DNA of 47,477 nucleotides from Sedimentisphaerales bacterium (lineage in GTDB: Bacteria; Planctomycetota; Phycisphaerae; Sedimentisphaerales; Anaerobacaceae): assembly GCA_016934255.1 (NCBI GenBank), contig JAFGTG010000118.1, positions 1 to 47,477 on the forward strand. Direction: 5' to 3'. The position numbers were made by a program, and so were the translations under genes. The notes beneath the pieces were generated by a model. The model saw only the letters and a program-made list of their open reading frames with translations. It did no database searches and was not told the origin of the DNA. Of the stretch, positions 7,558 through 27,340 are shown one piece after another. Within the stretch, counting starts at the first letter, position 1. Each line of letters starts with the position of its first letter.

Positions 7558-7626
7558 GCGTTGCCAACATACAATCCTGGCCGGTTAACAATCCAATTGA
7601 ATAATACCCGATCAGGAGAAATGATT

Positions 7627-9447
7627 ATGAGCAATTCAAGGAAAGTTCTCGTCGCCCTGTTAATACTATGCACATATCAGGAGGCCAATCCAGTATTCGC
7701 CTCAGAAAAACTCATTCCACTGGATATCGGTCGGGTGAAAGTTGGCGGTGAGATCGGCCGGCGGATCGATATCACAATTAACAACAATGCACTCGTGCTG
7801 GATGCCGATAAAGACTTCCTTCTTCCGTTTCAACAAAAAAGTCGTGAAGGCGGCTATATCGGCCTGGGTAAATTCATCGATTGTCTCGTCCGATTCTCCG
7901 CCTACTCCCACGACAAGAAGGTGCTCGATTTGAAAAAACACGTCGTCGCTGAAACCATCAAGACCCAGGAACAAGACGGCTACATCGGCATTTTCGTGCC
8001 GGAAAGGCGCATGTGGCACCTTTGGGACATTCACGAAATGGGCTATCTCGTGCTGGGCTTAACAACAGACTATCGATACTTTAAAGAAAGACCGTCACTG
8101 GAAGCAGCGAAGAAATTGGCTGATTATATTATTATGCGCTGGTCTGATGATCCGGAACGCCCAACGGAAGACTGGATTTCAACTTATGTCGCTACGACGG
8201 GACTGGAAGAGTCGATGTTGGCCTTGTACGAGCAAACCCAGGATAAACGCTATCTGGATTTCTGCATCGATTATAGAAAACTACCCGATTGGGATACGCC
8301 GATCATCGAAGGTCGCTGGGGAAACCTCGAAGGACACGCGTATTATCATCTGTGCCACTGCCTGGCTCAACTCCGATTGCATGGAATACAGCCGGAGTCG
8401 TGCTTGTTAAGCCAATCACAAATGACGTTCGACTTTATGGTTCGACAGGATGGATTGTTGGCGCCGGGCCTGGTCGGGTATCAGGAATGTTGGCATACGA
8501 ACCAACAGGGCTTTTTCAAACTGGGCGAGACCTGCGCGACGGCCTATCTGATTCGCTGGCTGGACGCCATGCTTCGCATTCAGGGGGAATCCATCTATGG
8601 GGACATCATGGAACGGTCGATATACAACGGCCTGTTCGCCGCCCAGTCTCCCGACGGCCGACGACTGAGATATTATTCGCCGTTCGAAGGACCAAGGATA
8701 TATTTCGACGGCGACACATATTGTTGTCCGTGCAATTTCAGGCGAATCATCGCCGAGTTGCCCGGTATGATCTATTATCGCCAGAATGGAGGTTTGACGA
8801 TTAACCTTTACACGACCTCTTCGACGGAGATGAACCTTCAGGAAAGACTTTCTCTTGAGGTACGCCAAGTCACGGATTATCCCAATTCAGGAAATGTCGT
8901 TATTGACTTGAAGCCATCCAGGCCGGCCCGTTTTCCATTACACCTGCGAATTCCACGCTGGTGCGACGAGGCCAAGATCACCATCAACGATGAGGCTATT
9001 GAGATGACGACGCCCGGCGGCGATTTCTTCACGATTACCCGCGAATGGAAAGACGGAGATCAGGTCACGTTGCACATGCCGATGACGTTTCGATTGGTCA
9101 AAGGCAGGCAGAGCCAGGTGGGTCGCGTCGCCGTCATGCGCGGACCAATGCTGTTTTGTCTTAATCCTAAAAGGCAGGAAAATTTCGATCCTGAGATCAT
9201 GCGGCTCATGTGGCTCGATCCGGCGTCTCTGAAGCTATCCGGCCCGGACGATTCAATCCGTCCCGGCGGCATGACCTGTCAGGCTATGTTCTGGCCTCCC
9301 ACCAATTACAACGCCGCGGGGAAAGCCACCCTTAAATTGACACTCACAGAATATCCCGATCCGGATTGCCAGGCGACGTATTTTCTCGTCCCGAATCCAA
9401 AGGACGATGCCCTGATAGATGATGAGCTTGTTGAATTTGGTATGTAG
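7627..9447 (+). CDS. GH127-like beta-L-arabinofuranosidase-family protein, secreted
   Basis: 606 aa from the ATG at 7627 (AGGAG 8 nt upstream; the ATG at 7621 is too close). A signal peptide precedes residues 'VFASEK'. The body is an (alpha/alpha)6 barrel followed by beta-sandwich domains, as in GH127/GH146. Key residues are present: E301-T-C303 in G-E-T-C, and C366-C367-P-C369-N-F. In the characterised Bifidobacterium enzyme HypBA1 an equivalent glutamate and three cysteines bind zinc, with one cysteine acting as nucleophile. The family removes beta-L-arabinofuranose and probably other pentoses from plant or algal glycans. Its stop is 12 bp from the convergent URO-D gene. The exact substrate is unknown. 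Confidence 0.85.
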   Translation: MSNSRKVLVALLILCTYQEANPVFASEKLIPLDIGRVKVGGEIGRRIDITINNNALVLDADKDFLLPFQQKSREGGYIGLGKFIDCLVRFSAYSHDKKVLDLKKHVVAETIKTQEQDGYIGIFVPERRMWHLWDIHEMGYLVLGLTTDYRYFKERPSLEAAKKLADYIIMRWSDDPERPTEDWISTYVATTGLEESMLALYEQTQDKRYLDFCIDYRKLPDWDTPIIEGRWGNLEGHAYYHLCHCLAQLRLHGIQPESCLLSQSQMTFDFMVRQDGLLAPGLVGYQECWHTNQQGFFKLGETCATAYLIRWLDAMLRIQGESIYGDIMERSIYNGLFAAQSPDGRRLRYYSPFEGPRIYFDGDTYCCPCNFRRIIAELPGMIYYRQNGGLTINLYTTSSTEMNLQERLSLEVRQVTDYPNSGNVVIDLKPSRPARFPLHLRIPRWCDEAKITINDEAIEMTTPGGDFFTITREWKDGDQVTLHMPMTFRLVKGRQSQVGRVAVMRGPMLFCLNPKRQENFDPEIMRLMWLDPASLKLSGPDDSIRPGGMTCQAMFWPPTNYNAAGKATLKLTLTEYPDPDCQATYFLVPNPKDDALIDDELVEFGM

Positions 9448-9459
9448 TTTTTTGTCCGA

Positions 9460-10626
9460 TCAATAGAAACCGAACTCACGGGCAGCGTCGAATAAGGCCA
9501 CGATATTCTCAGGAGGGACGCCGACCTGGATGTTGTGAACGTTGTTGAAGACGTAGCCACCGCCGGGCTTGAAGATCTCCAGGTTCCGCCGGACATGCTC
9601 TCTTATTTCGCCCGGCTTGGCAAAGGGAAGGATGTGTTGGGTATCGATCCCGCCGCCCCAAAAGACTAAGCGGTCGCCGTATCGGGCTTTGAGTTCCCGG
9701 GGATTCATATTTTCGGCGCTGATCTGAACGGGATTGAGGATGTCGATTCCGTTATCCAACAGGTCGGGGATGTAGTCTATGACCGAACCGCACGTATGAT
9801 ACCAAATCTTGGCGGGACTTCGAGACTTGATGTGCTGGACGAGTTTTTTCTGCCGGGGCTTGACAATCTTCCTGTAGAACACGGGATTGAATAAAGGCCC
9901 GGATTGGCCACCGATATCGTCCCCGATCATAATGACATCGACGAGGTCGCCGATCTCGGCGAGAAAGCCGTTATAGTAATCCATCCAGAACGCGAGCATT
10001 TTTCCCAGCAGAGCCTCGCAGAAGGCCGGATTTTCGATCATATCCGTAAACCATCTCTCCAGTCCCCGCATGTACCAGCAGGTCTCATAAACAACCCCGC
10101 CGATCCCTGTTGAGATCGCATACGGCGTTTGGTCTCGCAGCCGGAGTGCTTCTTCACGAACGCCCGTGAATCGCGTCGGATCGTTGCCTTTCGGGAAAGG
10201 GTAATCCCCCACATCCTCAATCGTGGCTTCGGCGAGCGGGTGGTGCGATATATCCATGTAAAGCTGCTGATCGTCCGGCATCGACCAGACGACACCGAAC
10301 TCATCCTTCAGATCGTGCCAAAGTTTTCCATCCCGGGTATTTTGCTCGATTCCACCTTTGAAGCTATCAGGTCCATGAGCGAATACATAGCGAATGTCCA
10401 CCCCGAAACGCTCCAAGACCTGTTCGCACGGCCTGGCAAGCTGCTGAACCGGGTCCATTATCGTAACATCATCTTCAATTCCCAGGTAATCAAGCAACTC
10501 TTCATACGCTTTACGGTGTATGCCCGTTTGAAATCCTCCGAGGTCGATGGGGACTCTGTCGGGAATCTCGTGATTCAACGCTTTCAAGACACGTTGTCGC
10601 GAACTCATCGCTTCTTTCTTTGCCAT
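9460..10626 (-). CDS. URO-D superfamily protein (methyltransferase-like), third gene of the rhaT operon
   Basis: 388 aa from the ATG at 10626, 7 nt after the rhaT stop; an upstream TTG would overlap rhaT. The fold is that of uroporphyrinogen decarboxylase (start S-S-R-Q-R-V-L-K-A-L-N-H; G-D-D-I-G-G-Q). Unlike HemE it carries H277-T-C279-G, the zinc-binding H-x-C of corrinoid-linked methyltransferases such as MtaA/CmuA. The usual third cysteine near A-P-G-C is replaced by P-G-G-G, while a histidine (H364 in V-H-N-I) follows. There is no export signal. With a rhamnosidase and a rhamnose permease as neighbours it probably acts on something derived from the imported sugar; O-demethylation is my inference only. 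Confidence 0.85.
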   Translation of the reverse strand: MAKKEAMSSRQRVLKALNHEIPDRVPIDLGGFQTGIHRKAYEELLDYLGIEDDVTIMDPVQQLARPCEQVLERFGVDIRYVFAHGPDSFKGGIEQNTRDGKLWHDLKDEFGVVWSMPDDQQLYMDISHHPLAEATIEDVGDYPFPKGNDPTRFTGVREEALRLRDQTPYAISTGIGGVVYETCWYMRGLERWFTDMIENPAFCEALLGKMLAFWMDYYNGFLAEIGDLVDVIMIGDDIGGQSGPLFNPVFYRKIVKPRQKKLVQHIKSRSPAKIWYHTCGSVIDYIPDLLDNGIDILNPVQISAENMNPRELKARYGDRLVFWGGGIDTQHILPFAKPGEIREHVRRNLEIFKPGGGYVFNNVHNIQVGVPPENIVALFDAAREFGFY

Positions 10627-10633
10627 TTTCGTC

Positions 10634-11737
10634 TCACTGAGAATGCACGGTCCCAATTACTCTTGCCGATTGTTGAGTAGAATTGGGATTTTGGTTTTCA
10701 GTCTTCTTTAAATAGTTACCCACCCCAACGACGCATATCGAGGCTACGAGCGTGAATAAACCGAGTACGATAAGCTTGTGTGTGCGTTTACTCGAACCCT
10801 TCCATTCGCGAAAAATAAGTCCCCAGATATTGCTGAAGATGATGATGAAGGCCATGTGAATAGTCCAGCTCGAGAAGTCATAGTCGCCCATCCTTGTCTT
10901 TCCCATTCCGAAAAACATGAATTGAAGATACCATGTGATGCCCGCCAGCGTGCTGAAAACATAGTTCTTCACCAGCGGCGCCTTGTTGGCGTCGATGTAA
11001 TCTTTAGTTGAACGATTTTTGATATTAAGATAGATGCACCATAGTAAATTCGTCGTAAAGCCCCCTGCGAAAACGAAGATATAAATGGGGCTGACTTTCC
11101 ATAGTGACGTGCTGTCCTTACCGAAAGCAAGATCGCTAATAGCCTCGCCGGCTTCAATCCCGAATATCATGCACGCACTCATGACGCCTGCGAATATAGC
11201 AACCCACAATCCCTTTACGAAGTTAAATTCCTTGATGGCTTCTTTCTTCTTTTCATCAGGCATTTCTCTTTCTTTTGAGACTCCCGCCCAGCCGCATATT
11301 GCGATTCCTACAAGACAGATGAAAATACCAGCCAACGTAACTTGCCCAGACGTCTGGGTGGCGAGCCCGCCAAATTCGCCTCTGAAGATAGGCGGGATGA
11401 TTGTCCCAAACGCGGCGCAGAACCCTAATGCGATGGCGTAACCAAGCGACATTCCGAGGTAGCGCATGGACAACCCGAACGTCAGACCGCCGATCCCCCA
11501 AAGCACGCCGAACAGATAGGTCCAGAAAATGGCGGATGGAGGTGCTTTTATCAGGATCGAGAAGAGATTAGGCACAACCAGCAGAGCAATCAGCCAGGGC
11601 ATGACGATCCAGGAGAATACACCTCCTACAAGCCAGTAACTCTCCCACGCCCAGTTGCGGACCTTTTTGAACGGGATATAGAAGCTCCCGGCAGCAAAGC
11701 CTCCCACTGCATGTAAGAAAACGCCGAGTCCAATCAT
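10634..11737 (-). CDS. rhaT: L-rhamnose-proton symporter RhaT
   Basis: 367 aa with about ten hydrophobic segments and the characteristic RhaT N-terminus (H-A-V-G-G-F-A-A-G-S-F-Y-I-P-F-K-K-V-R-N-W-A-W-E). Later segments, including G-I-G-G-L-T-F-G-L-S-M-R-Y-L-G-M-S-L-G and the W-Y-L-Q-F-M-F-F-G-M-G region, also fit the family. RhaT imports L-rhamnose with a cation across the inner membrane. It lies 19 nt after the GH106 gene and 7 nt before the URO-D gene, so the three form one transcription unit in which rhamnose is released and then taken up. Confidence 0.93.
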   Translation of the reverse strand: MIGLGVFLHAVGGFAAGSFYIPFKKVRNWAWESYWLVGGVFSWIVMPWLIALLVVPNLFSILIKAPPSAIFWTYLFGVLWGIGGLTFGLSMRYLGMSLGYAIALGFCAAFGTIIPPIFRGEFGGLATQTSGQVTLAGIFICLVGIAICGWAGVSKEREMPDEKKKEAIKEFNFVKGLWVAIFAGVMSACMIFGIEAGEAISDLAFGKDSTSLWKVSPIYIFVFAGGFTTNLLWCIYLNIKNRSTKDYIDANKAPLVKNYVFSTLAGITWYLQFMFFGMGKTRMGDYDFSSWTIHMAFIIIFSNIWGLIFREWKGSSKRTHKLIVLGLFTLVASICVVGVGNYLKKTENQNPNSTQQSARVIGTVHSQ

Positions 11738-11756
11738 TATACGACTCCGATCGTCG

Positions 11757-14700
11757 CTATTTCTCTATCATTTGCTTTAATACAAAAGGTTCAAAAAGCC
11801 CATAGTCGAGGGTGTGATAGTGCTCGCCCGGAGGCGGACCCGTATCGGGGCCTTTCTGAAACATCGCGGGCCAGGCGCTGCCTACCCCCGGTCCGTTATG
11901 GTGCGGTCCCAACGTGTTCTTAAGCGTACCGACAACGATAACTTCAATCGTATTCGCGCCCGGTTGAATTAAATCCGCCACATCGCATTGCCAGGGCTGG
12001 TACGCAATATATCCCGCCGACTTTCCATTGACGTTGACCTTAGCAACGCTTCCGTACCACTTTGGAAGCTCAACAAGATAGCGCCCCGAAGGCTGTAAAA
12101 TGCCAAAAGTCTGCTTATATGAAACGCCCGTTGCGTAGAACGGATAGCCTTGCTTTTTCCAGCTACCCAGTTTAATCGGTTTCGAACCGCCTGTGACAAC
12201 GAAGCCCGAATCGACCGAATGAAGAGTAAACGTCCCGAGTAGATAAGCCGGTTCCAACTCGTGATAAATGGTAAAAGGCGACGCCTTGAGGGTCACGCGG
12301 TTCTCACCGACTTTCGCAACCTGGGCGATATCGATCCTCCCAAACGCCTTATCCAGCCACCATTCAGTGTCGCGGCCATCCCGGCCGCGCCATGTCGAAG
12401 GCGTCCCACCTTCGGATCGCGGGCGGGACACCCGCGACACAACGGTTTGACCATTGCAGCTAATCGTGTACAAATCCGGCCTCTCGATAACAATCGCCAA
12501 CCGTTTAGGTATCTGCTGACGGATCGTAAACCGATACGTCGCCTCGAAACCGCTGTCAGAACTGAATGTCTTTGTAATCAACTCATCTCGAAACTGAACA
12601 GCGCTGTCCCACGGATTTCGAGCCATGCCGCTCTTCTGAAACGCAAATTGGTTAGCCTTATAGAAATAGATATCCTTCTTCGTCTCACCACCCGCCGTAA
12701 TATCGACGAAGTCCAATGTTAGCACGTTCTCCTCAACCGGGTGAATCTCAAGCTTGCCTTGTAACGGCATAATCTTTATCGTTTCTTCCGTCCTATATAT
12801 AGGCTTACCTTTCTTCTCGGAAAGAAAGAGCACGAGACTTCCACAAGGCGCCAGCTCGAAGCGCGTCTTTATACCTGTGCCGGCTTGTTCAAAAGGATAC
12901 GTGGAAATCTCCGCCGTAGCAGGGTCCCATTTTTCCACACTCCGCATTGCCGATTTAATCCATCCCGTCGAAGGTGAATCGATGCTTGTATTGACCAACA
13001 GCAAAAACTCGCCGTCCTCAACCGTTCTCCTGTGATGAAACAATATGCCTTCGTCGCCCGGGTCGCGTTCGACGGCAAATCCATCCTTTGAATCCGCCAG
13101 CAACATACGCGGCGTATCATCTGCTTTGGCTTGTTTCCAGCCCGGATGCTTCGACGCTTCGGCGCATCGATTCGACGGCTGGCCATTAACACAGGAAGGA
13201 ATCGGTCCACAGCAAATCGCCACACCGCCGGCCTTCAGATAATCTTCGAGTAAATCCATCGTCGGCAGGTTCAAGTTCTCCGTTAGCGGCGGTAAAACAA
13301 CCGTGTCATAGGCGCGTTGTCCAACTCTAAATAACGGACCAACAATTGAGCCATGCCGAGCGATGATATCTTCGCTTCCGACATCATACTCGACCTGTGC
13401 TCGTTCCAGGGCCACGAGCATCTGCTGGAAGCTGTTTCCCACCTCGTTGAGATGGTTTTCACCCTGATACATCCACGCGGTCGTCGTCGGCTCGACGATA
13501 AGAATACGATTGATTTGCTCGCCTTGCGACATAACCAGTGACAGCCTGGCAAAGTATTGGGCCATCACGTGATACGAATCCCACCACGGTTCGTGATAGG
13601 AGAACGATTGCGGATGGTCTCGTTTCCGCGCTCCTCGGATCGTGATATATGAGAGATGCTCATTGAGCGTATTGACGCCTAACACATAAAGCCAGTCGCC
13701 GATGCGCTTCATATCCTCGAAACGCAGGTCCCATCCGCCCGCGCCGTAGGCTTCGCACAGCGTTCGCTTGCGCCCGAGTTGATTGGCCACACTCGACAGC
13801 TCCTTAACCGACCGAACATTGCCGAACTGGGCGTTCGTATCTTCACGGTACTGGTTCATCAGCGTATCGATTGCCGGCCGTTGGTGCCAGGCATACATGG
13901 CCATGTTGTCGGGACCGTGGGCGGTGCTGGGCCAGCCGTGCTCCCAGTAGTGGCCGGTGAATTCCAGGTTGTTTTTCTCGCAGAAGTCGTGGCAAGGCTT
14001 GCCCCAGCGCTTAATAAACTGCTCCAAAATAACCTTGTAGTAGTTGTGGCGTACTTTTTTCCAGTCACCGACCGGTCGGGCCATTGCAGGCAAATGGTCT
14101 TCGAGACGGTAACCCCATCGTTTCTGGAACTGTTCGGACAGATGTTCGTTCCACGGCAGCGCGCCCACGAAGGGGTGCGGCTCATCGGTGAAAATGCCCG
14201 GCACTCGTCGGCCAAAGTGCTCGCCGATCTGACGCCGATACGCCTCGAAGGTAATCTCGATGAACTTCTCGGTCACACCCGGTTTGAGCAGGTCCACGTA
14301 GTACTTGCCGCCGTACCAGCCGCCTTCCGGGGCCAGCCGCCAGGTCGCTACGAGGTAACGACCCTCCGGCAGCTTCTCGCCGGCCCTGGCCGAAGGCGTC
14401 ACGTTTTCATATCCGTCCGCAGTAAGGCGATAGACCGCGAAGACGTCGTCGCCGGGCTTTCCGGTCTGCTTGACCTCGGCCAGGTGCAATCCCCGGCCGC
14501 GCGACTCAGGCATGGCTTCAGGCACGAAGCCACCCGCAAAACCTGAAGGATAGGAATTCTCATCGTAGATCCAGATATTCATGTCGAGCCGCTCGGCCTC
14601 TTTCAAAGCGACTTTCCACAGATCGAACCACTCCTTCGAAAGATACGGCGTCATCAAGCCCGGCCGGGGGTGAACGAACGCCTGCTTAACCTGCTGTCCC

Positions 14701-14915
14701 GCTAAATCCCGAAGCGTATCGATAATTTGCTCCTCGGTGAGCCTGTCGTTCCATACCCAAAGCGGACCCGAATGATACTCCCGAGGCGGATCGGCAAAGA
14801 TCGCCTTAATCGCAGTCGAATCGACGGCGTCAAGTCGCCCGGGCGGAATTAAAATCGTAACGAAGGAAACGGTCAGAATAAAAATACGGAATTTTGTGTA
14901 GATGAAAGAATCCAT
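11757..14915 (-). CDS. GH106-like alpha-L-rhamnosidase, secreted
   Basis: 1052 aa; an AAGGTG-type ribosome site lies before the ATG. A signal peptide covers about residues 1-30. The N-terminal barrel has the block typical of the GH106 superfamily (P-P-R-E-Y-H-S-G-P-L-W-V-W-N-D-R, then W-I-Y-D-E-N-S-Y-P-S-G-F-A-G-G), and G-I-F-T-D-E-P supplies a likely active-site glutamate. The C-terminal beta-sandwich ends with W-L-D-K-A-F-G-R-I-D-I and N-V-N-G-K-S-A-G modules like those of GH2/GH106 enzymes. It heads the operon with rhaT, which strongly supports rhamnose release. Residues about 826-850 are encoded by a 74-bp triple-hairpin repeat (12367-12440) read in frame, a low-complexity R/G/P insert absent from the usual fold. 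Confidence 0.87.
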   Translation of the reverse strand: MDSFIYTKFRIFILTVSFVTILIPPGRLDAVDSTAIKAIFADPPREYHSGPLWVWNDRLTEEQIIDTLRDLAGQQVKQAFVHPRPGLMTPYLSKEWFDLWKVALKEAERLDMNIWIYDENSYPSGFAGGFVPEAMPESRGRGLHLAEVKQTGKPGDDVFAVYRLTADGYENVTPSARAGEKLPEGRYLVATWRLAPEGGWYGGKYYVDLLKPGVTEKFIEITFEAYRRQIGEHFGRRVPGIFTDEPHPFVGALPWNEHLSEQFQKRWGYRLEDHLPAMARPVGDWKKVRHNYYKVILEQFIKRWGKPCHDFCEKNNLEFTGHYWEHGWPSTAHGPDNMAMYAWHQRPAIDTLMNQYREDTNAQFGNVRSVKELSSVANQLGRKRTLCEAYGAGGWDLRFEDMKRIGDWLYVLGVNTLNEHLSYITIRGARKRDHPQSFSYHEPWWDSYHVMAQYFARLSLVMSQGEQINRILIVEPTTTAWMYQGENHLNEVGNSFQQMLVALERAQVEYDVGSEDIIARHGSIVGPLFRVGQRAYDTVVLPPLTENLNLPTMDLLEDYLKAGGVAICCGPIPSCVNGQPSNRCAEASKHPGWKQAKADDTPRMLLADSKDGFAVERDPGDEGILFHHRRTVEDGEFLLLVNTSIDSPSTGWIKSAMRSVEKWDPATAEISTYPFEQAGTGIKTRFELAPCGSLVLFLSEKKGKPIYRTEETIKIMPLQGKLEIHPVEENVLTLDFVDITAGGETKKDIYFYKANQFAFQKSGMARNPWDSAVQFRDELITKTFSSDSGFEATYRFTIRQQIPKRLAIVIERPDLYTISCNGQTVVSRVSRPRSEGGTPSTWRGRDGRDTEWWLDKAFGRIDIAQVAKVGENRVTLKASPFTIYHELEPAYLLGTFTLHSVDSGFVVTGGSKPIKLGSWKKQGYPFYATGVSYKQTFGILQPSGRYLVELPKWYGSVAKVNVNGKSAGYIAYQPWQCDVADLIQPGANTIEVIVVGTLKNTLGPHHNGPGVGSAWPAMFQKGPDTGPPPGEHYHTLDYGLFEPFVLKQMIEK
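12367..12440. repeat. Triple-hairpin repeat, copy A, inside the GH106 coding frame
   Basis: The ends gtgtcgcgg (12367-12375) and ccgcgacac (12432-12440) are exact inverted complements. Inside are three consecutive hairpins: stems 12371-12377/12383-12389 (7 bp, 5-nt loop), 12396-12401/12409-12414 (6 bp) and 12418-12423/12431-12436 (6 bp). The same architecture and similar sequence recur in the intergenic copy at 42901-42976. On the coding strand it reads without a stop and adds about 25 residues rich in Arg, Gly, Ser and Pro. Confidence 0.75.
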
Positions 14916-15075
14916 GTGAACACCTTACAAGATCATATTTAGTAAGTTGAATACCCTACAGTTATTAACATCGTAAGAATAGCGGATATCCGTCGATAAA
15001 ACAAGGTGGAACTCCTGAGACAGGTCGGATAAAATAACAAGCAGATATAAAGGAAAGTCAAATGGAGTGCATACT
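14916..15075. promoter_or_regulatory. Divergent control region between the two glycan operons
   Basis: A 160-bp gap separates the GH106-rhaT-URO-D operon (minus) from the GH38-URO-D-SSS-GH95 operon (plus), so both promoters must lie here. A 10-bp perfect palindrome, cggatatccg, sits at 14983-14992 near the middle and could be an operator half. I cannot assign a convincing -35/-10 pair, and no regulator gene is in the window. Confidence 0.4.
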
Positions 15076-18000
15076 ATGAAACATATCCGACCGACAAAAG
15101 TTACATCGTTTGTGCTGTTGCTCTGTGTTTGTTTATCCGGACCAGCTCTTGGCCAGAATCATTTGCTCTGGGAAATCGGCAAAGCCGATAATAATACGGC
15201 CGAATTCGCATTAGGGCCGGACAGAAGCAATCAATACTCGACCCGTTTTCCGTATGATGCCATGTTTGTCGCCGGGCAATCCGATCCGAAAAACGACTGG
15301 CCTTATATCCAGCCGGGACCGGCGGACGTCTGGGCCGGCAGTCAGAGCCACACCTTCACAATTCTTTTCGGTTTTAAGACGGCACCAACCCAGGGGCAGA
15401 ACGAGTTAGTTCTGGACCTCGTGGACACCCATAGCGCCCTGCCGCCCAGGATGGAAATCAAAATCAACGAGGCTTCTTACATCCGAGAGCTACCCCGCGG
15501 CGCCGGCGATGCCTCCGCACACGGCGAAATTGACAAAGGGCGTGAGTGTCGGGTTGTTATCGGCTTCCCTGCGAAGGTGCTCAAGGCAGGCAATAATCAT
15601 ATCACCATCACTTCGCTGGCCGGCAGTTGGATTCTTTACGATTACGTCGGCCTTACCGTTCCGTCCGGTGCAGAGCCCGGGCCGGTCGATCCCACGACCA
15701 GGTTACTCAATGTTCTCACGCAGCCTTACTTAGTCCAAGGTAAAGAGGGTAAGCTGTACCAACCGGTATTAGCTTCCGTCCTCCATATCGGCGATCCGGT
15801 CGAAGCAGGGATCCGCATCAACGGCGAGGAGCCGATTACGCAATCGCTCGAACCGGGTTATAAAGTAATTGAAGGACTTACCCCGGCGGTGGAGACTTCG
15901 ACTTCCGTCGAGGTTGAGGTGGAAGTCGCAGGCCAGTCGATGGGCAAACAAGCACTGACGATTGAGCCAGTCCGCAAGTGGCACGTGTGGCTATTGCACC
16001 ATTCTCACGTGGATATCGGCTATACACACGTTCAAACGGAGGTCGAGCAAAAACACTGGCAGTATTTCAAGCAGGTGATCGACTTGGCGCGCACAACGAC
16101 AGAATATCCGAAAGGCTCGGCCTTCAAATGGAATACCGAAGTCCTCTGGGCGGTGGATAGCTATCTCAAGCAGGCGTCGCCGGAAGATCGAGAGACCTTT
16201 ATTAAAGCCGTCAAGAATGGCTGGATAGGCCTGGATGCTTTGTACGGGAACGAACTCACCGCTTTATGTCGGCCCGAGGAGCTTATTCATCTGGTCGAAT
16301 ATGCCCAAATGCTGAGAAAGCATTACGAAGTCACCATCGATTCGGCGATGATCACCGACGTGCCCGGCTACACCTGGGGCATCGTCCCGATTCTGGCTCA
16401 GAGCGGCGTGAAATATTTCTCCGTCGGCCCGAATCGCGGGCACCGTATCGGCTACACGCTATCGACCTGGGGGGACAAACCGTTCTATTGGGAATCCCCC
16501 TGCGGAAAGCATAAGATTCTCTGCTGGGTGGCGGGCGAGGGATATTCCTTTTTCCACAGCGGGCGCCTCGACGGGGGACGACTTTTCGACTATCTCTCGC
16601 GCCTGGCCGACGCGAAATATCCATACGATATGGTCCAGCTTCGTTATTCGATCGGCGGCGATAACGGCCCGCCCGATCCCGATTTGAGCCAGTTCGTCAA
16701 GGATTGGAACGCAAAATACGCTTATCCGAAATTGATCGTAGCGACGACCAGCGAGATGTTCCGAGCGTTCGAGCAGAAATATGGCGATAAACTCTCCAGG
16801 ATTCGGGGTGATTTTACGCCGTATTGGGAGGACGGGGCCGGCTCGTCCGCGGCTGAGACGGCGATCAATCGCAACGCCGCCGAACGTCTCGTGCAGGCCG
16901 AGACGCTGTGGGCGATGCTCGATCCGGAACATTATCCCGCCGAACAGTTTTACGAGGCATGGCGTAGCGTCATCCTTTATGATGAACACACCTGGGGCGC
17001 GCATTGCAGCATTAGCCAGCCGGACAGTGATTTCACAAAAGCCCAGTGGAAGATCAAACAAGCCTTTGCTCTTAATGCAGAAGTTCAGTCATACAATCTG
17101 CTCAACAACGCGCTGGCCAAACATCGTACAACAGAAAAAAACGTCACGGCCATCGATGTTTTCAATACATCCTCCTGGAACCGAACGGATCTCGTTATTC
17201 TCCCCAAAAGTATATCGGTGCCGGGCGGTATTATCACAGAGATCGACGGAAAAAACGTGAAATCGCAGCGACTCTCGACGGACGAATTGGCTTTCCTTGC
17301 CGAGAACGTCGCGCCGTTTTCCGCAAAGAGATTCATCTTCCAATCCGGCAAGGCCTCCGCGCCCGACAACGTGACGGCTCATGGCGCCGAGTTGAACAAT
17401 GGCGTTATTTCCCTGACGGTCAACGATCAGACGGGCGCGATCCAAAGCCTCAAGTGGAAAGGATTGGACGCTGAGCTTGTGAACCAAGATACCGATCTTG
17501 GATTGAACGACTATTTCTATGTCGCTGGCAGAGAGCCGACGAATCCAAAGCGAAACGGAGCAGTCCAAATCAGTGTCAAAGAGCGAGGGCCGCTGATTGC
17601 ATCGTTGCTGATTGAATCCGACGCGCCGGGCTGCAACAAGCTGACACGCGAGCTGCGTCTTATTGACGGCATAGACCGTGTCGATATTATTGACGTCATT
17701 GACAAGCAAAAGATCTACGAACAGGAAGCGGTGCATTTAGCTTTCGCTTTTAACGTACCCGACGGCGTGATACGAATGAACACACCCTGGGCCGTCGTGC
17801 GACCGGAAGCGGATCAATTAGCGGGCGCCTGCAAAAACTACTTTACCGTCCAGAGATGGATCGATATCTCCAATGCCGACTACGGTGTCACTCTGGCGAC
17901 ACCTGATGCGCCGCTGATCGAAGTCGGCGCCCTCACCAACGATCCCAGGGGCAAGTCCGTGGGATGGATCAAAGAGATCAAACCGTCCTCGACAATCTAC

Positions 18001-18438
18001 TCATACGTGATGAACAATTACTGGGAAACCAACTACAAGGCCGGCCAGGAAGGCCCGACCACGTTCCGTTATTCCATTACGCCCCATCAGGCATTCGATT
18101 CCGGTGCGTCGGCAAGATTCGGCGTCGAGTGCAGTCAACCCTTCATCGTCGTACCGGTTGATGAGAAAACGCCCGCTCGAGCCTCCGAATTAATCGTCGA
18201 GCCAACGAATATCACCGTCTCGACCTTCAAGCCCAGCGAGGACGGCAACGCTCGAATCGTACGGTTGTTCAACGCAAGCGGACGAACGGAGAAAGTGACC
18301 CTTACCTGGGCCAGGCCGGAATCGCAAACCGTCTGGCGAAGTAATCTGGCGGAAGAAAAAGGCCCCAGGCTTGTCGGACCAATCGAGATGGTGGCGTATG
18401 AAATTGTCACCTTACGCGTTTCTGAACCGGGAGAATGA
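15076..18438 (+). CDS. GH38-like alpha-mannosidase-family enzyme with N-terminal PL4/CBM-like domain, secreted
   Basis: 1120 aa from the ATG at 15076, favoured over GTG at 15067 because GGAG lies 8 nt upstream. A signal peptide is followed by about 180 residues (L-L-W-E-I-G-K-A-D...E-F) resembling the third, carbohydrate-binding-like domain of PL4 rhamnogalacturonan lyases. The GH38 catalytic domain begins with H309-S-H311-V-D313-I-G-Y, the zinc-binding motif, and D428 in I-T-D-V-P-G-Y is the probable nucleophile. The beta-rich C-terminus matches glycosyl hydrolase 38 C-terminal domains. Family members hydrolyse alpha-mannosides, but distant members act on other sugars and the PL4-like module suggests a pectin-like or rhamnose-containing target. 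It leads an operon; the next gene starts 4 nt after its stop. Confidence 0.83.
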   Translation: MKHIRPTKVTSFVLLLCVCLSGPALGQNHLLWEIGKADNNTAEFALGPDRSNQYSTRFPYDAMFVAGQSDPKNDWPYIQPGPADVWAGSQSHTFTILFGFKTAPTQGQNELVLDLVDTHSALPPRMEIKINEASYIRELPRGAGDASAHGEIDKGRECRVVIGFPAKVLKAGNNHITITSLAGSWILYDYVGLTVPSGAEPGPVDPTTRLLNVLTQPYLVQGKEGKLYQPVLASVLHIGDPVEAGIRINGEEPITQSLEPGYKVIEGLTPAVETSTSVEVEVEVAGQSMGKQALTIEPVRKWHVWLLHHSHVDIGYTHVQTEVEQKHWQYFKQVIDLARTTTEYPKGSAFKWNTEVLWAVDSYLKQASPEDRETFIKAVKNGWIGLDALYGNELTALCRPEELIHLVEYAQMLRKHYEVTIDSAMITDVPGYTWGIVPILAQSGVKYFSVGPNRGHRIGYTLSTWGDKPFYWESPCGKHKILCWVAGEGYSFFHSGRLDGGRLFDYLSRLADAKYPYDMVQLRYSIGGDNGPPDPDLSQFVKDWNAKYAYPKLIVATTSEMFRAFEQKYGDKLSRIRGDFTPYWEDGAGSSAAETAINRNAAERLVQAETLWAMLDPEHYPAEQFYEAWRSVILYDEHTWGAHCSISQPDSDFTKAQWKIKQAFALNAEVQSYNLLNNALAKHRTTEKNVTAIDVFNTSSWNRTDLVILPKSISVPGGIITEIDGKNVKSQRLSTDELAFLAENVAPFSAKRFIFQSGKASAPDNVTAHGAELNNGVISLTVNDQTGAIQSLKWKGLDAELVNQDTDLGLNDYFYVAGREPTNPKRNGAVQISVKERGPLIASLLIESDAPGCNKLTRELRLIDGIDRVDIIDVIDKQKIYEQEAVHLAFAFNVPDGVIRMNTPWAVVRPEADQLAGACKNYFTVQRWIDISNADYGVTLATPDAPLIEVGALTNDPRGKSVGWIKEIKPSSTIYSYVMNNYWETNYKAGQEGPTTFRYSITPHQAFDSGASARFGVECSQPFIVVPVDEKTPARASELIVEPTNITVSTFKPSEDGNARIVRLFNASGRTEKVTLTWARPESQTVWRSNLAEEKGPRLVGPIEMVAYEIVTLRVSEPGE

Positions 18439-18442
18439 AAAT

Positions 18443-19663
18443 ATGACGATGACATCACGAGAGCGAGTCCTGGCGGCGTTGAATCATAACGAAACGGACC
18501 GAGTGCCCGTGGATTTTTCAGGGCATCGCTCGTCGGGCATCGCGGCCATTGCTTATCCGAAGCTGCGAGAATACCTCGGTTTGCCGCCCAGGCCGATTCG
18601 CGTGTATGACGTCATACAACAATTAGCGATTGTAGATGAAGACGTGCTGGATCGATTCGGTGTGGATACCATCGAGCTGGGGCGAGGCTTTGCACAGGAA
18701 GACGAATCCTGGACGCCGTGGACGTTGCCGGATGGCACGGCGTGTTTCGTACCCGCCTGGACGCGACTTCAACGAGAAGAACGTCGCTGGGTCATACAAT
18801 CGGAGAACGGCAGGATTCTGGCCCACATGCCGGATGGAGCGATCTACTTCGAGCAAACGTATTTTCCTTTTCTCGAAGGCGACGATCTCGACGCCGTTTC
18901 CGAGGCCCTTCAGGAATCTATGTGGACGGCAGTCGCCAGCCCGCCCGGACCGATGGATAGCCAGGCATTCGCCGAGGGCGCAAAACAATTCAGAACCCAA
19001 ACGGATCGAGCGATCATCGGATTGTTCGGGGGCAATCTCTTCGAGATCGGACAGTTCTTTTATCGCAATGATTTGTTTATGATGTTGCTGGCCGCTGAGC
19101 CGCAACGCGCTCATCGCTTCCTCGATAAGCTCGTCGAAATCCATATGGCCAATCTCGAACAATTCTTAAGATCGGTCGGAGAGTCTATCGATATCATTCT
19201 CTTCGGGGACGACCTCGGGATGCAAACCGGCCCGATGATGTCGCCGAAGATGTATTGCGAATTCTTCAAACCGCGACATACCTTACTCTGGAACCGCGCG
19301 AAAGAATTAGCCGACGTGAAGGTTATGCTCCACTGTTGCGGCGGCGTTCGGGAGCTCCTACCTCATTTGATCGAAGCCGGTCTCGACGCCATCAATCCGG
19401 TTCAGATCAGTTGTGCCGGCATGGACGCGGCGGAATTGAAGGCGAAGTTCGGCCGGGACCTCACCTTTTGGGGCGGCGGCTGCGATACAAGGGACATCCT
19501 GCCAAACGGCACGCCTGAGCAGATTCAGGAGCATGTTAAGCAACAGGTCGAGATACTCCAACCCGGCGGTGGGTTCGTGTTCCAGCAAGTACACAATATT
19601 CTGGCAAACGTATCGTCAAAAAATATCGTGACAATGTTCGACGCTGTCAACGACGGATTGTAA
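18443..19663 (+). CDS. URO-D superfamily protein (methyltransferase-like), second copy
   Basis: 406 aa from the ATG at 18443, with GGGAG 9 nt upstream lying inside the end of the GH38 gene, so translation is probably coupled. It is clearly paralogous to the protein encoded at 9460-10626 (S-R-E-R-V-L-A-A-L-N-H; G-D-D-L-G-M-Q-T-G-P; I-N-P-V-Q-I-S; F-W-G-G-G-x-D-T). It has H297-C-C299-G at the zinc-motif position and V-H-N-I near the end, again without the A-P-G-C cysteine. It is cytoplasmic. It lies between an exported glycosidase and an SSS symporter, repeating the glycosidase/transporter/URO-D grouping of the opposite operon. HemE activity is unlikely because the two copies sit in sugar operons and carry the H-x-C motif. 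Confidence 0.85.
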   Translation: MTMTSRERVLAALNHNETDRVPVDFSGHRSSGIAAIAYPKLREYLGLPPRPIRVYDVIQQLAIVDEDVLDRFGVDTIELGRGFAQEDESWTPWTLPDGTACFVPAWTRLQREERRWVIQSENGRILAHMPDGAIYFEQTYFPFLEGDDLDAVSEALQESMWTAVASPPGPMDSQAFAEGAKQFRTQTDRAIIGLFGGNLFEIGQFFYRNDLFMMLLAAEPQRAHRFLDKLVEIHMANLEQFLRSVGESIDIILFGDDLGMQTGPMMSPKMYCEFFKPRHTLLWNRAKELADVKVMLHCCGGVRELLPHLIEAGLDAINPVQISCAGMDAAELKAKFGRDLTFWGGGCDTRDILPNGTPEQIQEHVKQQVEILQPGGGFVFQQVHNILANVSSKNIVTMFDAVNDGL

Positions 19664-19681: not shown

Positions 19682-21487
19682 ATGAGCCCAATTGATTACG
19701 GCATCATTCTCGTCTATTTTGCGGTCGTGATTGGATTGGGCTTCTGGTATCAAAAGCGAGCGTCGAAAAGCCTGGGGGCCTATTTCCTGGGCGGTAAGAA
19801 TATCCACTGGCTGGCGCTGGCGATGTCCGGCTCGGTCTCCAATTTCGATATCACCGGCACGATGTGGATCATCTCCATTCTGTACGTTCTCGGCATGAAG
19901 TCGATGTGGCATCATTGGATGTGGGGCTTTCTGATGGGCGCCTTTTTCATGAGCTATATGGGCAAATGGGTACGCCGTTCGAACGTCATGACGGCCGCTG
20001 AGTGGATGCAAACCCGTTTCGGCTCGGGAACCGCCGGTAAACTCGCTCGTACAACGTCGGCGCTGATCGCGGTGCTGTTCACCGCCTGTTTCATCGGTTA
20101 CGCCTACCAGGGTATCGGCAAGTTTGCTGCGGTGTATATTCCGCTGGAAACGCTGGCCGAGCACACGACGTCGGCGTTCCTTCAAAAGCTCGTCACCCAA
20201 CACGAACCCGCATTCCTCGCTCTGGTCATCATCTCGCTGACCACGCTCTATGTGATTCTCGGCGGTCTCTACAGCGTAGTATTCACCGATGTCATTCAAA
20301 CAATCGTCCTAACCGTCGGTAGCCTCTTCGTCGCTTCACTCGCATGGGCCCGTCTGACCCCATCGGCGCTGGCCTCGCTACCGGCCGATTGGAGTTCCCT
20401 GGCGGTCCCATGGCGCATCGACCGTCTGGCCGGGACGGACAATGCCCACTTCCAGTTCTTCGGCGCGCTCGTCATTTTCTGGGTGATCAAAGGCTTGCTC
20501 TTAAATCTCGGCGGGCCGGCTCAAATGTACGACGCGCAGCGTTTCCTGGCCGCACGGAACTCGCGCGATGCGGCCAAGATCGGCGCCGCCTGGAGTCTCT
20601 TTCTTATTGTCCGCTGGGCGATGTGTGCCGGGATCGCCCTGCTGGCCGTCACCGGCGTGGCCGGCGTCACCGACTCGGAAAAGGTCATGCCCCTCGTCCT
20701 GCTCGAATTTTTGCCGGCGGGTATCCGGGGCATCGTTATCGCCGGCCTGCTCGCCGCCTTTATGTCCACCTTCAGTTCCACCGTCAACAGCGGCGCATCC
20801 TTTATTGTGCGCGATTTTTGGCAAACCTATCTCCGGCCCCACGCGTCCGATCAACAGGCGGTGCGCTTCAGCTACTTCGCCACCCTTTTTATCGTCGCGC
20901 TCGGCATCGTCATCGGTCTCAACGCCGGATCGATCGCCCAGATATGGAACTGGATGATGATGGCGCTCAGTGCAGGGGTGGTCGTGCCGAACGTGCTACG
21001 GTGGTACTGGTGGCGGATAAACGGCTGGGGCTACACGCTCGGGACGCTGGCCGGCATCCTCCTGTCACTCGTGGCGCTGTTCGTTAAGGATGCGCCAACC
21101 TATTATGTATTTCCCTCGATATGCCTGGCCTCGCTCGTTGCGAGTATCGTCGTCTCTCTGGCGACGCCCCCGGTTGAACGTGACATTCTCACTCGCTTCT
21201 ATCAATCGATTCGACCTTTTGGTTCCTGGAAACCGATTGCGGCTCTATCTCCGGAGGAATCTTCATCCAGATCGAAATCCGAAAGCCTTTCGTTGACTCT
21301 CGTAAATGTCGTGCTTGGAATGATTGCGATCACAGGTTTGTATTTGTTCCCTATGTATCTTGTCGGTCATTGGTACGTTCGCTCGGCAGTATGGTTTATC
21401 ACGGCGCTGGCTGCTATTATAATCTTAAAGTTTACCTGGTATCGATATCTTCCCGCTCCGGCAGAAGAAGGGGATGTTGAAGAGTAA
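19682..21487 (+). CDS. Sodium:solute symporter (SSS family)
   Basis: 601 aa with about 13-14 hydrophobic segments. The N-terminal helix pattern D-Y-G-I-I-L-V-Y-F-A-V-V-I-G-L-G-F is followed by Y-F-L-G-G-K-N-I-H-W, the usual SSS first-loop motif. G-G-L-Y-S-V-V-F-T-D-V-I-Q (about residues 195-207) is the conserved segment near the sodium site, and A-A-F-M-S-T-F-S-S-T-V-N-S-G-A-S matches the helix-8 signature. Members couple sodium entry to uptake of sugars and other solutes. It starts 18 nt after the URO-D gene and ends 14 nt before the GH95 gene, so it likely imports the sugar released by the GH38-like and GH95-like enzymes. Confidence 0.92.
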   Translation: MSPIDYGIILVYFAVVIGLGFWYQKRASKSLGAYFLGGKNIHWLALAMSGSVSNFDITGTMWIISILYVLGMKSMWHHWMWGFLMGAFFMSYMGKWVRRSNVMTAAEWMQTRFGSGTAGKLARTTSALIAVLFTACFIGYAYQGIGKFAAVYIPLETLAEHTTSAFLQKLVTQHEPAFLALVIISLTTLYVILGGLYSVVFTDVIQTIVLTVGSLFVASLAWARLTPSALASLPADWSSLAVPWRIDRLAGTDNAHFQFFGALVIFWVIKGLLLNLGGPAQMYDAQRFLAARNSRDAAKIGAAWSLFLIVRWAMCAGIALLAVTGVAGVTDSEKVMPLVLLEFLPAGIRGIVIAGLLAAFMSTFSSTVNSGASFIVRDFWQTYLRPHASDQQAVRFSYFATLFIVALGIVIGLNAGSIAQIWNWMMMALSAGVVVPNVLRWYWWRINGWGYTLGTLAGILLSLVALFVKDAPTYYVFPSICLASLVASIVVSLATPPVERDILTRFYQSIRPFGSWKPIAALSPEESSSRSKSESLSLTLVNVVLGMIAITGLYLFPMYLVGHWYVRSAVWFITALAAIIILKFTWYRYLPAPAEEGDVEE

Positions 21488-21501: not shown

Positions 21502-23808
21502 ATGACACGTTCCAAGTTTTCGTGCATTTTTCTTGCCTTATTTACAATGTCCATTGCAAGCGTCGTTTCGGCTCTGCCTCTTTCAGAGCACGGTTTGCAT
21601 TACAAAGAGCCGGCAACGGTCTGGGACGAAGCCATGCCGCTCGGCAATGGTTTGCTTGGGGCACTGGTTTGGGGGGATGGCAAGCCGTTGCACATTTCGC
21701 TCGATCGTACGGACCTCTGGGACCTCCGGCCTGTTCCGGAATTTCATACGGAAGAATACTCCTATCAAATGATGCGACAATGGGTACGTGAACGCCGGCT
21801 CGATGATCTCCATCGCCTCTATGATAAACCTTATGGGAACGCCGGTCCGACGAAAATCCCCGCCGGGCGCATCGAGCTAACGCTTGGGAACGATCCGGCT
21901 TTCGAGAAGGCATCGCTGGACCTCGCCCAAGCGATGACAACGGTCTCTTTCAAGAACGGCGACCGGGTGCGCGTTTTTGTTCACGCCACGGAACTCTTCG
22001 GGATGATTCAGGCCGAAACGAAAGAATCCATTCATCTGCAACTTCGGGTTCCCCCATTTGCCGGCAAGGTGACGGAAGAAGCCGGGGCGGGCAAGATCAG
22101 CGCCGGCGATCTGGCGAGCTTAAGGTATAAACCACCGATTGAAGCAAGCGGCGAGAATTGGAAGAGCTACCTCCAGGAAGGATGGGGCGGATTTGAATTC
22201 GCCGTAGCGATTGCCTGGCGAAAGTCGGAAGGTGCCTGGCTCGGAGCCTGGTCGATGGCGACGTCGAATGAATCGCTGGAGCCGGAAAAGACTGCCCTTT
22301 CGAATTGCCTCAAGTTGCTGGATACGGGATTCGCTTCAGCAATATCCACGCATCGTCAATGGTGGGATGCCTATTGGGACCGGTCTTCTGTTCGGGTGCC
22401 CAATCCGATCATCGAAAGACAATGGTATCTGGAGATGTACAAATTCGGCTCGGCGGCCCGGCCCGATACGCCGCCCATTACTCTCCAGGGCCCCTGGACG
22501 GCGGATAATATGAAGATTCCACCCTGGAAGGGGGACTACCATCACGATTTGAATACGGAACTGTGCTATTGGCCCGCCTATAGCGGCAACCAGCTTGACG
22601 GCGCTTACGGATTTGTGAACTGGCTCTGGCAAACACGGGATACTGCAAGGGCTTGGACGAAACGATTCTTCGATCTGCCGGGTTTGAACGTGCCAATGAC
22701 AGCGGACCTGAACCAGGAGCAGATTGGCGGCTGGCATCAATACACGCATTCCGCAACGACCGCCGCCTGGCTGGCCCATCATTTCTATTTGCATTGGCGA
22801 TACAGCATGGACCGGGACTTTCTCAAGAACCGGGCCTATCCGTGGCTTCGCGAGACGTGTGTCTTTTTGGAGGCGGTCACTGAGAAGGGACCGGATGGTA
22901 AACGCACGCTGCCTCTTAGCTCGTCGCCGGAGATCAACGACAATAAGCTCAATGCGTGGTTTCCGACGATTACGAATTATGATCTGGCCCTGATTCGCTG
23001 GGCCTTCGAGAAAGCCGCGGAACTCGCCGACGAAGTCGGCGAAGCGAAACAGGCACAGCATTGGAGACAAGTGCTTGACGAAATGCCTGATTTAGCCCTG
23101 GATGCGAACGATAAGAAGCTCCTCGTTGCGAAAGACTACCCGTTACCGTTTTCACACCGGCATTTTTCGCACCTCATGGCGTTTCACCCGCTGGGTCTGA
23201 TCTGCTGGGAAAACGGCTCGGAAGACCAGGCAACCATCAAGGCGTCGATGACCGATCTCGACGAAAAAGGAACATCGCAATGGTGCGGCTACAGCTTCAG
23301 TTGGCTGGCCTCTCTGGCGGCGCGGGCGCGAGACGGAGAAAAAGCCGCTAAGGCTCTGGAGATATTCGCCTCAGCCTTTTGCCTGCGCAACAGCTTTCAT
23401 TGCAACGGCGACCAGTCCGGCAAAGGCTATTCCAACTATCGCTATCGACCGTTCACTCTGGAGGGTAACTTTGCCTCGGCGGCGGGTCTGAACGAAATGT
23501 TATTGCAAAGCTACTCCGGTACGATCCGAGTCTTCCCGGCCATTCCGGCAAGTTGGAAAGACGTCTCCTTTCAGACACTCCGCGCTGAGGGAGCATTCCT
23601 CGTCTCTGCGGTCCGGCGGAACGGCTTAATACAAACCGTGGAAATCCATTCCGAGAAAGGCGGTCTTTGCCGGATTGAAAATCCGTTCGAACGAACGAAT
23701 TACGAACTCAGCGGCATCCCACGGGATACCATAGGTCGAGAAGGAAACGATTTGCTATTCAAAACAACCGCTGGGCAGAAAATAATTCTATCGAGAAAGA
23801 CAGATTAA
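21502..23808 (+). CDS. GH95-like alpha-L-fucosidase/galactosidase-family enzyme, secreted
   Basis: 768 aa; AAAGGAG precedes the ATG and a signal peptide spans about 1-24. The mature protein begins with the GH95 N-terminal pattern L-H-Y-K-E-P-A-T-V-W-D-E-A-M-P-L-G-N-G. The (alpha/alpha)6 domain has S-S-S-P-E477, matching the family's acid glutamate, and E-G-N-F-A-S-A-A-G-L-N-E-M-L-L-Q-S near the end. Canonical GH95 (AfcA) uses N-x-N plus an Asp in D-G-N-F; here these positions read N351-T-E353 and E654-G-N-F. Activity may therefore differ from 1,2-alpha-L-fucosidase. It is the last gene of the operon; about 170 bp with a palindromic repeat separate it from the next gene. Confidence 0.82.
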   Translation: MTRSKFSCIFLALFTMSIASVVSALPLSEHGLHYKEPATVWDEAMPLGNGLLGALVWGDGKPLHISLDRTDLWDLRPVPEFHTEEYSYQMMRQWVRERRLDDLHRLYDKPYGNAGPTKIPAGRIELTLGNDPAFEKASLDLAQAMTTVSFKNGDRVRVFVHATELFGMIQAETKESIHLQLRVPPFAGKVTEEAGAGKISAGDLASLRYKPPIEASGENWKSYLQEGWGGFEFAVAIAWRKSEGAWLGAWSMATSNESLEPEKTALSNCLKLLDTGFASAISTHRQWWDAYWDRSSVRVPNPIIERQWYLEMYKFGSAARPDTPPITLQGPWTADNMKIPPWKGDYHHDLNTELCYWPAYSGNQLDGAYGFVNWLWQTRDTARAWTKRFFDLPGLNVPMTADLNQEQIGGWHQYTHSATTAAWLAHHFYLHWRYSMDRDFLKNRAYPWLRETCVFLEAVTEKGPDGKRTLPLSSSPEINDNKLNAWFPTITNYDLALIRWAFEKAAELADEVGEAKQAQHWRQVLDEMPDLALDANDKKLLVAKDYPLPFSHRHFSHLMAFHPLGLICWENGSEDQATIKASMTDLDEKGTSQWCGYSFSWLASLAARARDGEKAAKALEIFASAFCLRNSFHCNGDQSGKGYSNYRYRPFTLEGNFASAAGLNEMLLQSYSGTIRVFPAIPASWKDVSFQTLRAEGAFLVSAVRRNGLIQTVEIHSEKGGLCRIENPFERTNYELSGIPRDTIGREGNDLLFKTTAGQKIILSRKTD

Positions 23809-27289: not shown

Positions 27290-27340
27290 ATCCTGAACAA
27301 ATACTAATGATCAAAATTCATAATACAAAACGATCAGATA
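27271..27340. repeat. A/T-rich 'ctaaatcctaatttctaaatcctgaac' type dispersed repeat
   Basis: The stretch contains a short internal direct repeat (taaatcct twice, at 27273 and 27287) and reads like the simple A/T-rich repeats scattered between genes in many planctomycete and candidate-phylum genomes. It begins inside the 3' end of the aminoacylase-like gene and supplies its stop codon. Only one copy is in the window, so assignment rests on resemblance. Confidence 0.45.

Follow-up and report, generated by a model that had tools for sequence, protein, structure and literature searches.

Two paralogous URO-D-fold proteins in sugar operons of a Sedimentisphaerales bacterium are candidate corrinoid-dependent O-demethylases of methylated sugars

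Known methyltransferase I (MTI) enzymes of the UroD superfamily act either on methoxylated aromatics, which they demethylate, or on haloalkanes, which they dehalogenate (PMC13222342, PMC8630106), and bacterial MtaA-like clusters are tied to methyl-sulfur or methyl-selenium metabolism (PMC10418091). A cytochrome P450 oxidatively demethylates 6-O-methyl-D-galactose in an O2-dependent reaction that releases formaldehyde; this was the only route of methyl-sugar demethylation found in the literature searched (PMC10033563), and no corrinoid sugar demethylase was described in the open-licence literature searched. In this work we analyzed a stretch of 47,477 nucleotides (hereafter, the window) from a Sedimentisphaerales bacterium [JAFGTG010000118.1], which is contig C267 of genome G000 (6.3 Mb, 86% complete). 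It contains two paralogous genes for URO-D-fold proteins, designated U1 and U2, each located in an operon with glycosidase and sugar-transporter genes. We propose that both proteins work in the cytosol as corrinoid-dependent MTI enzymes and remove O-methyl groups from methylated monosaccharides, an activity that we infer and regard as probable, though far from certain.

Both proteins match the Pfam family URO-D (PF01208; 90.1 bits for U1 and 75.6 bits for U2 at a gathering cut-off of 23.9) and are ~38% identical to each other. They carry the motifs YHTCGS and NVHNIQ (U1) and LHCCGG and QVHNIL (U2). The closest named matches to U1 come from Planctomycetota metagenome genomes, including those of Phycisphaerae, and the URO-D clade with H-x-C and H-N-I is present in more than 10 phyla. 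The predicted model of U1 (pLDDT 95.7) has the UROD/MtaA barrel fold. Its best Foldseek match was MtaA (4ay7, E 6.9e-16), and VIA-align gave Z 27.1 with HemE and Z 25.7 with MtaA across 314–317 residues. In total, G000 encodes 14 URO-D proteins. Five further paralogs (L014, L017, L021, L022, L023) are located at SSS/MFS-like transporters or one gene from them, and most of these five do not combine H-x-C with H-N-I.

The zinc of MtaA is bound by H237, C239 and C316, as seen in its published structure. We aligned 134 URO-D proteins, 88 of them from the U1/U2 clade, with CmuA, CmuC and HemE references taken from annotated records. H277, H364 and D237 (U1 numbering) were found in all 88 clade members, and C279 in 82, the other six having D. 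The three metal columns are occupied by H, C and C in CmuA and the MtaA-type paralogs and by F/A, K/V and H in HemE; in the third of them the clade thus has His (88/88) where CmuA and the MtaA-type paralogs have Cys. Profile alignment pairs the H-x-C of the clade with that of MtaA 4ay7, and in the U1 model H277 lies at the end of a barrel strand while C279, D237 and H364 are found in loops that follow directly on strands. From these alignment columns and strand-end positions, H277, C279 and H364 are predicted to hold a metal, probably zinc. An earlier sequence-only reading had noted H-x-C-G in both proteins and its absence from HemE, and both observations were confirmed. It also described the loss of the A-P-G-C cysteine and the retention of a V-H-N-I histidine as two features. 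The cysteine is indeed lost and the histidine present, but by alignment the two are one substitution in the column of the third ligand. Since HemE also has His in this column, the clade can be diagnosed only by the combination of H-x-C, H364 and D237.

The genes around U1 and U2 form two divergent operons, GH106-RhaT-U1 (minus strand) and GH38-U2-SSS-GH95 (plus strand), composed as follows:

9460–10626, minus strand: U1, URO-D-fold protein of the H-x-C / H-N-I clade, putative methyltransferase I (388 aa, ATG at 10626)
10634–11737, minus strand: RhaT, L-rhamnose/proton symporter family, directly upstream of U1 (PF06379, 258 bits; NF010024)
11757–14915, minus strand: GH106 alpha-L-rhamnosidase-family protein, gene 1 of the U1 operon (PF17132, 79.6 bits)
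14916–15066, no strand: intergenic region of 151 bases separating the divergent operons (from the sequence)
15067–18438, plus strand: GH38 alpha-mannosidase-family protein, gene 1 of the U2 operon (PF01074, PF17677, PF14683)
18443–19663, plus strand: U2, URO-D-fold paralog, putative methyltransferase I for a second O-methyl sugar (406 aa, ATG at 18443)
19682–21487, plus strand: SSS-family sodium:solute symporter, next after U2 (PF00474, 93.9 bits)
21502–23808, plus strand: GH95-family glycosidase, closing gene of the U2 operon (PF22124, 178 bits)

The reading frames of U1 and U2 are both open, and these are real genes. Only 7 bases separate RhaT from U1 and only 4 separate the GH38 stop from the U2 start codon, which supports co-transcription; as the operons diverge across only 151 bases, they may together constitute one sugar locus. 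The arrangement is not due to chance, because other genomes show the same gene order (see below). RhaT passes the NCBIfam equivalog cut-off (NF010024, 499.1 bits vs 468), and the GH38 protein also has a CBM-like domain of the polysaccharide lyase family 4 domain III type. Thus, the pairing of paralogous URO-D proteins with rhaT and with an SSS symporter, as originally described, holds, and so does the exported glycosidase in each operon (GH106 in one, GH38 and GH95 in the other), the glycosidases starting with signal-peptide-like stretches as judged by eye. Other polysaccharide genes are located nearby: a GH127-family protein at 7561–9447, for which aceric acid hydrolase is the nearest NCBIfam model (158 bits at a cut-off of 950), and, at 27307–47430, a rhamnogalacturonase/epimerase-like gene, GH43, a second SSS symporter and a GH78-type rhamnosidase.

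Comparison with the described systems, made for the O-demethylase MTIs MtvB, OdmB, VdmB and MtoB from their published descriptions, revealed that U1 and U2 share with them the superfamily and the presence of partner genes, which are found in the genome and are clustered in relatives. However, these four enzymes have methoxylated aromatics as substrates, and their genes usually accompany the gene of the corrinoid protein they work with, whereas U1 and U2 have glycosidase and sugar-transporter neighbours and an unlinked corrinoid protein. A Moorella URO-D protein encoded upstream of a corrinoid protein and a methyltransferase II (MTII; L229) did not match the clade profile. It should be mentioned that the 3.3-Mb genome of the acetogen Moorella stamsii (G150) has 26 URO-D family matches, several of them adjoining corrinoid proteins and methyl-tetrahydrofolate-type methyltransferases. 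The chloromethane methyltransferase CdmB (PDB 9rui), an MTI working with the corrinoid protein CdmC and the MTII CdmA, also has the UroD fold; it contains no zinc (PMC13222342), has Phe at the H364 column according to our alignment, and reaches only E 0.008 with the clade profile. MtaA, MtbA and CmuA (TIGR01463) and the bacterial Mlp proteins (PMC10418091) have H-x-C and the third metal-ligand column in common with U1 and U2, but their third residue is Cys instead of His, and U1 and U2 stay far under the family cut-off (47.1 and 56.0 bits against 235.4). Finally, the P450 route (PMC10033563) likewise serves to take a methyl ether off an algal sugar, but requires O2, and no P450 was found in the 86% complete G000. 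The proposed activity would therefore be a known type of chemistry applied to a new class of substrates, with Cys replaced by His at the predicted metal site and with genes borne by sugar operons.

Analysis of the source genome revealed one stand-alone corrinoid protein (210 aa, L024:4729-5361; PF02607 and PF02310), one corrinoid activase RACo (L026:388-1986; PF14574 and PF17651) and a single open frame fusing methylenetetrahydrofolate reductase (MetF, PF02219), its C-terminal DUF5981/MetV zinc domain (PF12225) and a pterin-binding methyltransferase (PF00809) (L100; contig C18, 1-2328). These are the partners needed by an O-demethylase MTI. In relatives this shared corrinoid protein is mostly solitary, and its sole URO-D-like neighbour was seen at L243:7124-8913 (G035). 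With these parts the following scheme can be proposed. The exported GH106, GH38 and GH95 enzymes would free sugars from a methyl-decorated glycan, and the freed methyl sugars would be imported via RhaT or the SSS symporter and bound in the URO-D barrel of U1 or U2, where the metal at H277, C279 and H364 would activate the ether oxygen. The methyl group would pass to Co(I) of the sole MtgC/MtaC-like corrinoid protein of the genome and then, by the methyltransferase domain of the MetF-MetV-MTII fusion, to tetrahydrofolate; corrinoid oxidised to Co(II) would be re-reduced by RACo, and the demethylated sugar would enter normal catabolism. The likely substrate of U1 is O-methyl-L-rhamnose or a related 6-deoxy sugar, and that of U2 is likely a hexose or deoxyhexose with an O-methyl group. 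Two reports indicate that the cell-wall material of charophytes and liverworts contains O-methyl-rhamnose (PMC7612518, PMC6918356).

The gene neighbourhoods of clade members in other genomes link the clade to both sugars and corrinoid proteins. In an uncultured Desulfosporosinus (L127), genes for xylose isomerase, a ROK regulator, a sugar ABC permease, ATPase and binding protein are followed by a URO-D gene (product 44% identical to U1), an MtgC-like corrinoid protein and xylulokinase, with xylA and xylB exceeding their equivalog cut-offs (720 bits vs 533 and 605 bits vs 380). As an MTI and a corrinoid protein here stand between xylose uptake and xylulose phosphorylation, this set is simplest to explain as removing the methyl ether from methyl-xylose. 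A locus from Anaerolineae (L151) combines a sugar ABC system, three URO-D genes, a corrinoid protein, a xylose-isomerase-like protein and an FGGY kinase; one from Caldilineae (L182) has a U2-like URO-D, an FGGY kinase, an isomerase-like protein, a further URO-D and a corrinoid protein; and in L150 and L168 clade members occur with sugar ABC genes and a corrinoid protein. The cluster at L069 (G034) unites a clade member and a second URO-D with RACo, MetVF, a pterin-binding methyltransferase and a corrinoid protein. The corrinoid protein is encoded beside the putative MTI in L127, L151 and L168 and near the clade member in L150, L182 and L069. Two side observations concern similar loci. In L151 a 757-aa fusion of fatty-acid-desaturase-like, Rieske and NAD-binding parts (8974-11247) lies between the corrinoid protein and the sugar genes, and in L074 (G100) two URO-D paralogs surround an FGGY-type sugar kinase beside a TIM-barrel epimerase-like gene, as judged by eye.

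Closer to the window, RhaT adjoins U1 or its orthologs (~65–79% identity) in six loci (the window, L057, L058, L109, L118 and L120). A GH106 gene also accompanies the U1 ortholog in L118 from Hydrogenedentota and is located directly upstream of it in L105. Orthologs of U2 adjoin an SSS symporter in L070 (together with GH38) and L092, and an MFS sugar-porter-like gene in L090 and L093. That the type of transporter is exchanged while the URO-D protein stays supports action on the transported compound. As an internal control we compared near and far positions: with labels assigned by similarity to a few reference proteins and similar numbers of bases searched, transporter genes were located within 2.5 kb in 21 of 80 clade loci and at 3.5 kb or more in nine.

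We surveyed 150 genomes of the class for RACo and for U1-like proteins, the latter defined by E at most 1e-30. RACo was found in 62 of the 65 genomes with such a protein and in 17 of the 85 without (odds ratio 83; Fisher p 3e-22, the counts ignoring phylogeny). Among further clade-bearing genomes, mostly of other phyla, 14 of 16 had RACo.

Several observations weigh against a corrinoid-dependent function. There is no corrinoid gene inside the window, the corrinoid protein of G000 being on a different contig, and among the clade loci only ~8 of 80 have one within 7 kb. Five clade-bearing genomes lack RACo: G053, G101, G058 (74% complete), G153 (Hydrogenedentota, with RhaT-U1-GH106) and the isolate Maribellus maritimus. 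G053, which is 98% complete and encodes a U2 ortholog of 61% identity, also has no stand-alone corrinoid protein, and G030, where both clades are present, has no corrinoid-protein match. Furthermore, RACo also serves Wood-Ljungdahl corrinoid proteins, so its co-occurrence with the clade is partly an anaerobe signal. It should be mentioned that RACo, pterin methyltransferase and AcsC-like genes are adjacent, as judged by eye, in L073:12547-18687 (G099), which suggests Wood-Ljungdahl enzymes in a relative of the source organism. The exceptions include several metagenome assemblies, yet they keep a corrinoid-independent reading alive.

Such a reading would make U1 and U2 URO-D-fold metalloenzymes of a sugar step like epimerisation, dehydration or retro-aldol cleavage, with only the metal motif in common with methyltransferases. 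The clade members without RACo (G053, G153, G155), the missing corrinoid protein of G053, the Planctomycetota U1 loci without linked corrinoid genes and the His as third ligand would all agree with it; nevertheless, we consider it decidedly unlikely, since it leaves unexplained the corrinoid proteins that relatives have within sugar operons (L127, L150, L151, L168, L182), the L069 cluster and the presence of RACo in 62/65 genomes. It is unlikely, if a somewhat more serious alternative, that the proteins are corrinoid MTIs for a methylated compound that is not a monosaccharide freed by the adjacent glycosidases, such as a methoxylated aromatic aglycone or an O-methyl inositol of the pinitol or rhizopine type. 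Methoxylated aromatics are the substrates of the characterised UroD-superfamily O-demethylases (PMC13222342, PMC8630106), and the Gfo/Idh oxidoreductases and TIM-barrel isomerases at some clade loci would fit inositols as well, but plain sugars are the products suggested by RhaT and GH106 at U1 and by xylose isomerase and xylulokinase at its Desulfosporosinus relative.

Two alternatives remain. Transfer of a corrinoid methyl group to a thiol, the acceptor-side role of MtaA/MtbA or Mlp proteins, would agree with the nearest curated models (MtaA/CmuA) and the best Foldseek match (MtaA); we find it highly improbable given the 47 and 56 bits against a cut-off of 235 and the His replacing the Cys of MtaA-type proteins and CmuA, and other paralogs (e.g., C150) fit this role better. 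That U1 and U2 are merely divergent HemE proteins has a negligible probability: they share with HemE the fold (Z ~27) and the histidine at column 364, but U1 scores 28 bits with TIGR01464 against a cut-off of 302.95, U2 was not among the TIGR01464 matches listed, HemE has F/A-x-K/V at the position of H-x-C, the HemE rows are separate in the tree (SH-aLRT 99), and the operon context is that of sugars. Thus, of the points that the sequence-only reading proposed to check, grouping with HemE did not occur and corrinoid and methyl-acceptor genes are present in G000. Its central suggestion, demethylation of imported O-methyl sugars, gains backing for the corrinoid link from the genome parts, the RACo co-occurrence and the xylose-type operons of relatives, against the few clade genomes without corrinoid machinery, while substrate and activity stay at the level of a proposal.

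If U1 and U2 are sugar O-demethylases, the large clade with H-x-C and H-N-I could be the anaerobic counterpart of P450 sugar demethylation. Its members would be corrinoid-dependent sugar O-demethylases, each encoded within the operon that takes up and breaks down the sugar in question (rhamnose-type, xylose-type and others) and, in G000, sharing one corrinoid protein; for this wider hypothesis we see about equal grounds for belief and doubt. In many polysaccharides of algae, plants and microbes, sugars are capped by methyl ethers, which prevent their normal catabolism. The xylose-type operon of Desulfosporosinus makes the sugar-demethylase idea directly testable. If true, anaerobes would have a route for the use of methyl sugars, folate and acetogenic metabolism would gain a new supply of C1 units, and a URO-D clade annotated only as 'uroporphyrinogen decarboxylase family' would receive a function.

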